Source: Bacteroidota bacterium
Lineage (GTDB): Bacteria; Bacteroidota; Ignavibacteria; UBA10030; UBA8401
Assembly (NCBI GenBank): GCA_020052095.1
Contig: JAGVPT010000217.1
Location: forward strand, 1-49,992
Length of the DNA stretch: 49,992 nucleotides
Direction: 5' to 3'
Made by a program: the position numbers and the translations under genes. This document shows positions 2,968 through 46,922 of this stretch, one piece after another; position 1 is the first letter of the stretch; each line of letters starts with the position of its first letter. The notes below the pieces were generated by a model. That model saw nothing but the letters and a program-made list of their open reading frames with translations. It searched no databases and was not told where the DNA came from.

Positions 2968-3031
2968 ACGATGTGTTGTCAGTATACAGTATGACTTTAT
3001 CGCAAATTTACGCCAACGAAAAATTAATTTC

Positions 3032-4738
3032 ATGGTGAAGCAAATATTGAAATGGCAGTTTCTCTTTTCGCCATTGTTATTGTTGGTTAATTGCGCTTTT
3101 TCGCATCCTGGTGGAAAGAACCAATTAAGCAAATTGATTGATGACTCTCTGATTGCAAGAGTAGGCAGCTATCCCATTCCTTCGACCGAGTATATTCAGA
3201 GGTATTCTGATTTTCTTACTGCCACAGGTATTAAAGATAATCTGGATACTCGAAGAGCAATTGTTACTAATGTCATCAACGAGACGCTGCTATTACACTA
3301 TGACGATAGCGCGTCAATATTAAGAAATCAAAACTATGTAAATGACCTTGAACGTGTAAAGAAGCAAACAACATTAGCTTACCTAAAAGACCGAGAGATT
3401 TATGCAAAAATAACTGTCAATGAATTTGAATTACGACAGGCATTTGAACGTACGAATGAGAAACTTGTTGCTCGCCATCTCTACGCACGAACAGAGGAAG
3501 AAGCAAATAATTTATATCAACTTTTGAACATGGGTGTAGATTTTAATCTATTGGCCAGGCAGGTTTTTACAGATTCAGTCCTTCAAACTAATGGCGGGTA
3601 CCTTGGTTATTTTTCATGGGGTGATATGGACCCGGCATTCGAAGAAGCGGCGTACTCGCTACACGTTGGTGAAATTTCTCTACCTGTAAAAATAGCACAG
3701 GGGTATAGCATTATAAAATTAGAAGATCGTGTCTCTCATCCTTTGTTAACTGAAAATCAGTTTCTTCAAAAGAAATCTCATCTTGAAAGAGTGCTGAAAA
3801 TTAAAAAGAAAAAACCATCGGAACAGGAATACATACGACACATTTTCAATCCTAATATAGTGACCTTCAATAATGCAAATCTGAAAGGTTTATTGGATGA
3901 GTTGAAAAACTCCCCCTCAAAAAATCTGGAGTTTTACAAGTCAAAAAAATCTTCGTCCGTTTGTGCAACATATAATGGCACATCGTACACTCGGAACGAT
4001 TTATTGCGCCGTCTGAGCGAACTTCCTGTGGTTTATAGAAAGAAAATTACATCCTTAGAAGAGTTAAAAGTTGCAGTTGAAGGTTTTATACTTCAAGACA
4101 AGCTGCTTGCGATCGCACATCGAAAAGGCTATGACACGTTACCGCTTGTTGTAGACGAACATAAGAAAGCAAAGGAATCCTTATCCTTAAAATATAAAAT
4201 CCAAGAGATAACCGATAAAGCTCAATTTTCTGATTCGTTGATCTATGAATATTACAAAACGAACGTTCACCTTTTTTCGACAGAGGATGAATTGAATATT
4301 CAGGAAATTATTGTCGCCAATGGGAATTTGGCAGACAGTCTGAAAGAGACAATAAATGCAGGCGGCGATTTTGGCATGTTAGCGGAAAGGTATTCATTAA
4401 GGAAATGGTCGGCAGCAAATAAGGGTGTTATGGGCTTTGCCCCAATATCGAAATTTGGTTTACTCAAGGAAACATTATGGAACAGCCCAATAGGCGAATT
4501 GATTGGACCGGTTAAAATTGAAAATCACTACGGTTTTTTCAAGGTCTTGAATAAGAAACCGAGCGAACCCCTTGCATTTGATCTGATAAAAGATCAAGCA
4601 CGTCAAGCATTAAGATTCGAAAAACAAAGAACAATTATACACGATTACTTAGTTAAACTTCAAAAACATGTAAATATTGAAATTAATGAACAACGGCTGA
4701 CAACTTTCAAAGTAACCGATTTTGTTTCTCAGAAATAA
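3032..4738 (+). CDS. SurA/PpiC-like peptidyl-prolyl isomerase (two parvulin-like domains)
   Basis: A 568-aa exported protein with the SurA layout: an N-terminal signal (hydrophobic core ending LLLLVNC, a weak lipobox), a helical chaperone region, and two parvulin-type domains. The first, around residues 145-240, contains GVDFNLLARQ...GGYLGYFSWGDM and GEISLPVK...GYSIIKLEDR. The second, around 410-520, contains GGDFGMLAERYS, KGVMGFAPIS and IGELIGPVKIENHYGFFKV. The family assists folding of outer-membrane proteins in the periplasm. Its position directly before a TonB-dependent receptor, a large secreted protein and a PorV-like barrel suggests it helps mature these clients, which is inference. 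Catalytic competence is uncertain because the domains are divergent. The lipoprotein call is also uncertain because Asn occupies the -1 position. Confidence 0.85.
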   Translation: MVKQILKWQFLFSPLLLLVNCAFSHPGGKNQLSKLIDDSLIARVGSYPIPSTEYIQRYSDFLTATGIKDNLDTRRAIVTNVINETLLLHYDDSASILRNQNYVNDLERVKKQTTLAYLKDREIYAKITVNEFELRQAFERTNEKLVARHLYARTEEEANNLYQLLNMGVDFNLLARQVFTDSVLQTNGGYLGYFSWGDMDPAFEEAAYSLHVGEISLPVKIAQGYSIIKLEDRVSHPLLTENQFLQKKSHLERVLKIKKKKPSEQEYIRHIFNPNIVTFNNANLKGLLDELKNSPSKNLEFYKSKKSSSVCATYNGTSYTRNDLLRRLSELPVVYRKKITSLEELKVAVEGFILQDKLLAIAHRKGYDTLPLVVDEHKKAKESLSLKYKIQEITDKAQFSDSLIYEYYKTNVHLFSTEDELNIQEIIVANGNLADSLKETINAGGDFGMLAERYSLRKWSAANKGVMGFAPISKFGLLKETLWNSPIGELIGPVKIENHYGFFKVLNKKPSEPLAFDLIKDQARQALRFEKQRTIIHDYLVKLQKHVNIEINEQRLTTFKVTDFVSQK

Positions 4739-45985: not shown

Positions 45986-46144
45986 TGGTTGCGGAGGTTC
46001 TCACGCACCTGTCCGCCTGTGGTGGAGAGCATGAGTCCGAGATCCGAAAATGCTTCGAGAGAGATCAAACGTGATTCTTCGTTGGTGTCTGACATTCTTT
46101 GAGACAAAAAGATCCTCGAGGATGGATCCCATCTTCTCGTTAAG

Positions 46145-46204
46145 CACCACCGCTTAGTCCCCTCCTCATTGAGGAGGGGAAAGCGCGAAGCGCAGGGGTG
46201 GTGG
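46145..46204 (+). repeat. Palindromic intergenic repeat, copy C
   Basis: TCCCCTCCTCA (46158-46168) and TGAGGAGGGGA (46170-46180) form a perfect inner stem. CACCACC (46145-46151) pairs with GGTGGTG (46197-46203), and GCTT with AAGC. It shares AGTCCCCTC...GAGGGGA...AGGGGTG with copies A and B near 31 kb. Confidence 0.75.
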
Positions 46205-46284
46205 CAAACGATCCCGGCAGCGTCTTACTATGCTTGGGACAGAGAGAGTCTCGTTGGTTGCCCTGTCGAAGCCTCAAGGAAGCT

Positions 46285-46678
46285 GTTACTTTCTTTCCGA
46301 GAAAGAAAGTAACCAAAGAAATCTTGTCGAAATCGTAACGCACGGATTCAATCCCAACCGCACATGCCGCCAATTTCGGTGCGGCAAGAGGGGTGAGATC
46401 CGACACATTCAAGGTGAGCACCGAAATTGAAACCCTTCGATTGAATCTTTCCCCCTCACGCATCCGACGATTTCGACGTGACCAGAACAATGCTGCGCTG
46501 ATAAGTTCGGAATCGGCGGCAATGTGCGAGGAGGGCGATGCGTGCGTTAAGAAAACGGCAGGCATGTGGGGAAGGTGTGCGTGAGCCGTTTTCTTCGGCA
46601 TGCGCGGTGGCAAGCATCGCAAGGGTTCCGATTCCGAAAGGCTCTCTTTGCTTCTTTCTCTGGCCTCAGAGAAAGAAG
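46285..46678. repeat. Nested inverted-repeat block
   Basis: Five pairs of complementary arms: GTTACTTTCTTTC 46285-46297 with 46301-46313 (13 bp, 3-nt loop); GTCGAAATCGT 46326-46336 with 46467-46477; CGCACATGCCGCC 46359-46371 with GGCGGCAATGTGCG 46515-46528 (one bulge); AAGAAAACGGC 46549-46559 with 46585-46595; and CTTCTTTCTCTG 46651-46662 with 46667-46678. Terminal hairpins with similar AAAGAAAG/AGAAAGAAG stems bound the block like ends of a non-coding mobile element or a structured RNA. Confidence 0.65.
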
Positions 46679-46727
46679 AGAGCAGTTAGGCTCCTCGAAC
46701 TGAGCCACCGCCGATCCTGTGGTAAAC

Positions 46728-46756: not shown

Positions 46757-46782
46757 GATGCAATGAAATTCATCCTTTAACT

Positions 46783-46887
46783 CTATCCTGTGAGATAGGA
46801 AAGGAAAGGCAATGAAGAGAACCGTTCTCCGCAATATCCCTGCTCAAGGTATGAACCCCCGTTCAATTATGAATTGGGGTTTTTCTT
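46783..46887 (+). promoter_or_regulatory. PyrR-type transcription attenuator in the pyr leader
   Basis: The RNA-binding element is the hairpin CTATC-CTGTGA-GATAG (46783-46798), followed by GAAAGGAAAGG. It resembles the PyrR anti-antiterminator loop core UCCxGAGAG known from Bacillus pyr leaders. A second small hairpin GAGAAC/CGTTCTC lies at 46817-46829. The terminator is AACCCC (46854-46859) with GGGGTT (46876-46881), an inner TTCA/TGAA pairing and a following TTTCTTT. UMP-bound PyrR would favour termination, lowering expression when pyrimidines suffice. The adjacent gene encodes PyrR itself, which supports the assignment. The exact antiterminator pairing was not resolved. Confidence 0.75.
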
Positions 46888-46922
46888 TGTACTCACCTCA
46901 TCGCTCATCTACCTATGACTAA
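46812..46922 (+). CDS. Possible leader peptide overlapping the pyrR start
   Basis: A 36-codon open frame starts at an ATG preceded by GGAAAGG, runs through the attenuator terminator, and stops at 46920-46922, overlapping the pyrR ATG (46915). The pyrR start has no Shine-Dalgarno sequence, so translational coupling through this frame is plausible. The peptide itself (MKRTVLRNIPAQGMNPRS...) resembles nothing I recognise. It could be a by-product of the leader RNA. Confidence 0.35.
   Translation: MKRTVLRNIPAQGMNPRSIMNWGFSLYSPHRSSTYD

Follow-up and report, generated by a model that had tools for sequence, protein, structure and literature searches.

A probable composite MITE ahead of the pyr operon in an Ignavibacteria genome carries a hairpin motif found in other phyla

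Architecture of the inverted-repeat element

Ahead of the pyr operon, near the end of the window (the whole stretch of 49,992 nucleotides analysed here), lies a 394-nt block of nested inverted repeats, 46285–46678, which a preliminary description had taken as the complete feature. Every arm pair claimed there was found at its place, including the long-range 11-bp pair (46326–46336 with 46467–46477), and the matching hairpins said to bound the block have perfect stems of 13 and 12 bp. Further perfect arm pairs were identified (46371–46382 with 46418–46429, 46506–46516 with 46628–46638 and 46549–46559 with 46585–46595), and the core interior consists of two nested modules with three stems each, domain A and domain B (Table 1). 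A near-complementary pair proposed between 46359 and 46515 fared less well: CGCACATGCCGCC and GGCGGCAATGTGCG are complementary with one extra A, but the pair joins two modules and, as judged by eye from alignments, is apparently not kept in other copies, unlike the arms within each module.

Folded as RNA, the 394-nt block reached −160.5 kcal/mol on the + strand (dinucleotide shuffles, −124.6 ± 6.1; z = −5.9) and −163.2 kcal/mol on the − strand (dinucleotide shuffles, −118.6 ± 6.1; z = −7.3); folded as DNA, it gave z = −5.8 against dinucleotide shuffles. The block is far below shuffled sequence on both strands, with no shuffle as low, and its inverted repeats are confirmed as real and beyond chance.

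The limits 46285–46678 hold for the core only, as the repeated unit is larger (~46081–46712, 632 bp). Reading rightwards, an outer left end is followed by the CACCACC hairpin and an inner left end; then come the K hairpin and the two domains, A before B, and the right hairpin and right end close the unit. We read the window element as a 632-bp composite because the flanking duplication agrees at 0/8 positions when counted from the inner left end (46216) and at 5/8 when counted from the outer one (46081). The succession of left end, hairpin and left end recurs at two copies in the same genome (L045 and L046), and the CACCACC hairpin module also lies inside other elements (L040, L041, L045 and L046). 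This hairpin, CACCACC...CCCCTCCTCATTGAGGAGGGG...GGGGTGGTG (46126–46211 in the window), constitutes a further repeat family of the genome. Elements with the same ends carry other module sets and measure ~130–725 bp. The element holds no transposase gene: only short overlapping ORFs cross the arms, the largest of 160 aa, running through the palindromes.

Table 1 Features of the composite element and of the adjoining pyr leader (window coordinates).
Feature	Position	Strand	Remarks
Left copy of the 8-bp target duplication, putative (GATTCTTC)	46073–46080		5/8 positions equal to 46713–46720
Outer left end, degenerate terminal inverted repeat GTTGGTGTCTGACATT...	46081–46125	+	9/12 match to GGTAGTGTCTCA
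Nested CACCACC...GGTGGTG hairpin module	46126–46211	+	Arms 46137–46154/46194–46211 and 46158–46168/46170–46180
Inner left end (GGCAGCGTCTTACTATGCTTGGGACAGAGAGAGTCTCG...)	46216–46284	+	39 matches in own genome
Left terminal hairpin, stem 1 of motif K	46285–46313	+	13-bp perfect stem, 46285–46297/46301–46313
K core AAAGAAAGTAACCAAAGAAA	46301–46320	+	Conserved in at least six phyla
Domain A, nested stems 46326–46336/46467–46477, 46345–46353/46439–46447 and 46371–46382/46418–46429	46326–46477	+	Covariation; module in other families of the order
Domain B, nested stems 46506–46516/46628–46638, 46535–46545/46610–46620 and 46549–46559/46585–46595	46506–46638	+	In own genome and sister species
Right terminal hairpin, corresponding to K in inverted and degenerate form	46651–46678	+	12-bp perfect stem, 46651–46662/46667–46678; right end conserved in own genome
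Right end with terminal inverted repeat GAACTGAGCCACCGCC	46679–46712	+	9/12 match to TGAGACACTACC
Right copy of the target duplication, putative (GATCCTGT)	46713–46720		Paired with 46073–46080
pyr leader, conserved PyrR-site-like segment and terminator, outside the element	46774–46890	+	36-bp segment 92% identical upstream of sister pyrR; read in sequence

Copies, ends and target duplications

A genome search for repeats, among the checks proposed in the preliminary description, identified the block as a dispersed repeat with many copies. The window's own genome contains ~17 further near-complete core copies (77–88% identity) along with many fragments, 16 matches lie in the sister species (G001), and a search of 60 genomes gave matches in 17. 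Beyond the genus, sharing is confined to the left half (left hairpin and domain A, query positions 1–192), which marks the right half as a separate module; domain A recurs in other families of the same order, and domain B was found in the own genome and the sister species. The whole consensus left end gave no match among 59 relatives, and a plasmid search with the window core gave none. No substantial ORF is overlapped by 22 of the 26 placed copies. Small palindromes (TCCCAAAGGGATCCCTTCGGGA, CTCATCAGCCTTTGGCTGAG and a GACTGTGTAAAAAGT...ACTTTTTACACAGTC element) sit inside the K stem, in loops and between modules of copies L016–L035, L043 and L045.

When the copies were aligned, both ends proved conserved, the left as GGTAGTGTCTCACTTTCCTTGGGACAGAGAGAGTCTCG and the right as ...AAACTGAGACACTACC, and their outermost bases form inverted repeats. 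The terminal inverted repeats of the unit are GGTAGTGTCTCA...TGAGACACTACC, each matched at 9/12 positions by the window ends. With at most two mismatches allowed, the own genome has 68 sites with the terminal pattern and 12 with the reversed control; in the sister species these counts are 20 and 6. At further gene-adjacent sites with GGTAGTG-like ends, the neighbouring genes were all ordinary ones.

Flanking duplications were present as 8-bp repeats around the copies. In 21 elements both ends could be placed, and their 8-bp flanks agreed at 96 of 168 positions, compared to 48.1 ± 6.4 for shuffled partners (reached in 0 of 5,000 shuffles); flank lengths of 5, 7 and 9 bp were not significant and 6 bp was weak (p = 0.03). 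Perfect 8-bp repeats flank four copies, L036 (AAATCAAG), L049 (AAAGAATT), L073 (GAATGCCG) and L076 (CCCGCTTT). The duplication of the window copy is weak (5/8) which, together with its degenerate outer left end, argues that this copy is old. Dispersed copies, terminal inverted repeats, 8-bp target duplications, the lack of a transposase and the mostly intergenic placement uphold the earlier suggestion of a MITE.

A candidate transposase and the pyr operon

An element of the sister species (G001:C8:14811-18452, 3.6 kb) encodes an intact 275-aa IS1-family transposase, which matched Pfam DDE_Tnp_IS1 (PF03400) above cut-off (E = 1.9e-9) and NCBIfam IS1 at 6e-19 with a score of 68.7, below the cut-off of 100. 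Its ends are GGTAGTGCCTGAATT(G/T), flanked by a perfect 8-bp duplication, CGCCGGTG. Agreement between the MITE ends and these IS1-type ends extends to only ~13–14 of 16 positions. In the assembled own genome, an IS1-type transposase was seen solely as a C-terminal fragment, of 79 aa, in a 1,922-bp element with GGTAGTGCCTGAATTT ends (L263 888–2809) and a duplication of 9 bp (8/9 matching) rather than 8. This element also carries an NYN-domain ORF and a coiled-coil-like ORF, as a cargo-bearing IS1-type derivative would.

Since the sister-species element has an intact transposase and ends close to those of the MITE, with 8 bp duplicated at its flanks, mobilization in trans by an IS1-type transposase is the best explanation, and we infer from these sequence comparisons that such an enzyme would mobilize the MITE. 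We place at roughly three in four the probability that the feature is a composite non-autonomous MITE of 632 bp (~46081–46712), most likely moved in trans by an IS1-type transposase. In the mechanism we propose, an IS1-family transposase would act in trans on the MITE ends and duplicate 8 bp of target at insertion, palindromes would insert into or recombine with each other to give the nesting, and the location before the pyr operon would be a chance insertion in an intergenic gap, with no required role in pyr control.

An IS4-family transposase in place of the IS1 type is a quite improbable mobilizer. Three copies in the own genome (L282, L283 and L284), with ends CAGTAGTGTCC, are the only full-length candidates with similar ends seen there, but they have duplications of 9–10 bp, and their first bases are CA rather than GG, less like the MITE ends. 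One of the three has an internal stop. No IS256-type transposase was found in the own genome. For the pyr operon, the block is very unlikely to serve as insulator, terminator or regulator. Its strong hairpins lie ~200 bp before pyrR, yet the same element adjoins dozens of unrelated genes, and the pyrR leader recurs in the sister species (the 36-bp segment, 92% identical, corresponds to 46772–46807) with no element there and a different upstream gene. The insulating role suggested earlier found no support either in the local layout, as promoter-like sequence, PyrR-site-like segment and terminator are all downstream of the element and intact. The sister leader implies that the element entered the window lineage later or was lost in the sister; the flanks of the two loci are too diverged to align the exact empty site.

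Motif K across phyla

Motif K comprises the left hairpin and the bases that follow it, CTTTCTTT-loop-AAAGAAAGTAACCAAAGAAA. The pattern ACTTTCTTTN{2,30}AAAGAAAGTAACCAAAGAAA, for which 29 fixed bases put the chance expectation far below one, was present in at least 120 stretches of GTDB genomes. Among the matches listed were Caballeronia, Thiobacillus, Lysobacter, Xanthomonas, Methylobacter, Selenomonas, Mucilaginibacter, Segetibacter, Chitinophaga and metagenome-assembled genomes (MAGs) of Desulfuromonadales and Uhrbacteria. K is nearly identical in sequence across at least six phyla, the groups being Pseudomonadota, Bacteroidota, Negativicutes, Desulfuromonadales, Uhrbacteria and Fusobacteriota. 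Assignments of MAG hosts may be wrong, but isolates are not to be dismissed in this way: the complete plasmid pILYOP01 of Ilyobacter polytropus, a Fusobacteriota isolate, has seven K places. At one of these (L294, ~2980–3045), K is intergenic and near a photolyase gene. Phage records and E. coli genomes gave no match to K, and neither its sequence nor its translations matched anything in the open-access papers searched, where the motif also had no name that we could identify. The exact K core occurs in 43 stretches of IMG/VR contigs (L211–L253), through host carry-over or phage carriage.

Across 37 genus-level groups, the last loop bases of K are complementary to the bases directly after it (TCGCC/GGCGA, GCTGC/GCAGC, GGTGC/GCACC, TGTGC/GCACA, GTCTG/CAGAC, CTTGAT/ATCAAG and others), the partner starting 0–2 nt after K in 31 of them. 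The summed run length was 168, compared to 115.2 ± 5.4 for shuffled partners (0 of 2,000 shuffles reached it), a figure that serves as a guide rather than a clean probability because related genera were counted separately. G·U was better tolerated than A·C in this pairing. The arrangement has the geometry of an H-type pseudoknot whose third loop is rich in A. The window's own pair, as read in the sequence, is just CGAG with CTTG, including one G·U, and the fold may therefore be weak or lost in this copy.

As an inverted pair, K bounds ~0.5–0.7 kb of self-complementary DNA in Caballeronia, Thiobacillus, Cupriavidus, an Uhrbacteria MAG and the relative G047, with folding energies of −300 to −520 kcal/mol. 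Betaproteobacterial examples (L092 6100–6790, L093, L125, L127, L138, L163, L168 and L295 1800–2700) differ in their interiors, and those of Caballeronia share outer arms. Plasmids of Caballeronia and Paraburkholderia hold up to ~40 K places per record, with tens on Caballeronia megaplasmids; the gene tables of these records are empty or thin, so that ‘no annotated feature’ says little there. Beyond the genus, a search for target duplications around K palindromes was negative. K palindromes had no clear preference in gene orientation, although no paired element lay between divergent genes.

The Rfam family RF02421 (Bp1_684) matches the outer arms of the Caballeronia K palindromes, and its model begins inside the K hairpin. 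Matches were located at L092 6713–6820, L170 6729–6833, L138 5401–5509 and L168 1599–1718. Bp1_684 was described as a Burkholderia sRNA candidate with an RT–PCR product in B. pseudomallei (PMC3521395). From this overlap, RF02421 is probably a fragment of the repeated K-palindrome element class; no other named relative turned up.

We tentatively propose that K, with the next ~five bases, may be an undescribed cross-phylum mobile-element motif, folding, as RNA or as single-stranded DNA, into an H-type pseudoknot, marking both ends of 0.5–0.7-kb nested palindromes, recognized by some machinery and captured between IS1-type ends in the window genus. As a 20-nt sequence with a fold, often at both ends of giant palindromes, K deserves follow-up beyond the MITE itself. 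Recognition by a protein, or activity as an RNA, would make K the mark of a widespread class of small elements in bacteria, annotated so far as a fragment (RF02421) or not at all.

Pairing as RNA or as DNA

Covariation was assessed on 30 copies from the order. Domain A gave a positive result, with standard pairs in 96.7% of cells and ten pairs changed on both sides (reached by 0 of 500 shuffles), compared to 23–51% paired for slid controls; domain B varies too little to tell. If one strand is kept as RNA, G·U intermediates should outnumber A·C. The pair columns with G·U and with A·C numbered 11 and 10 in domain A, 6 and 7 in domain B and 17 and 17 together. Since G·U is not in excess, DNA-level pairing or templated repair of palindromes accounts for these counts more simply. 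Searching the window against Rfam gave no match at gathering or relaxed thresholds. The structured RNA suggested at the outset is consequently left with the covarying pairing of domain A but with neither a G·U excess nor an Rfam match, and is unproven.

Two readings of the core compete with that of a MITE moved by its ends. In one, which we consider unlikely, the core (K hairpin and domains A and B) would be a structured non-coding RNA under selection for its fold and a passenger between the transposon ends. The double changes of domain A, far above shuffles and slid controls, argue for it, as do the loop and downstream covariation of K across 37 genera, with its pseudoknot geometry and preference for G·U over A·C, and the match of a relative's outer arm to RF02421, a transcript detected by RT–PCR in Burkholderia. 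Against these stand the equal G·U and A·C columns in domains A and B, the missing Rfam match of the window, the hairpins inserted within the K stem of sister copies, and a copy number and target duplications that need no RNA. Slightly better placed, and still on the doubtful side, is the reading that the palindromes are kept as DNA cruciforms or hairpins, the substrate of a hairpin-recognizing transposase or recombinase, and acquired the flanking inverted repeats later. It would accommodate K-bounded palindromes in Caballeronia and others that lack GGTAGTG ends, the order-wide range of K and domain A against a long left end confined to the own species, and the nesting of palindrome modules in one another. 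The palindromes outside the genus, however, show no target duplication or fixed border, and the putative enzyme was not found.

Comparison with known systems

The composite MITE resembles several described repeats. Compared to IS1-family transposons of the single-ORF type, the sister-species element has the IS1-type transposase, ends starting with GGTAGTG and the 8-bp duplication, whereas the window element lacks a transposase and its ends differ at 2–3 of 16 positions. REP and REPIN elements, which are associated with RAYT transposases (PMC2817692, PMC3116915) and were taken here to be palindromes of 20–40 bp that have a tag of the GTAG or CGTC type and are accompanied by a RAYT, likewise consist of intergenic hairpins in inverted pairs; the elements described here far exceed them in length. 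The 113-nt model of RF02421 lies mostly outside the K hairpin, and the window has no match to it at the gathering score. In Streptococcus pneumoniae, BOX, RUP and SPRITE are clustered and nested small repeats named as separate families (PMC10969869); likened by description, they too are small intergenic elements nested in one another.

The closest parallel is with bacterial MITEs derived from insertion sequences, such as QMITE1 and QMITE2 of Coxiella, the latter with direct repeats of 7–9 bp, and Chunjie of Geobacter (reviewed in PMC10969869). These share terminal inverted repeats, short direct repeats, the lack of a transposase, many intergenic copies, strong hairpins and a size gradient with the window element, which differs in being a composite of interchangeable palindromic modules, up to ~725 bp long, and in having a core module that extends far beyond the species and its transposon ends. 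The composite MITE is a variant of a known element type, and its modular nested build is unusual.
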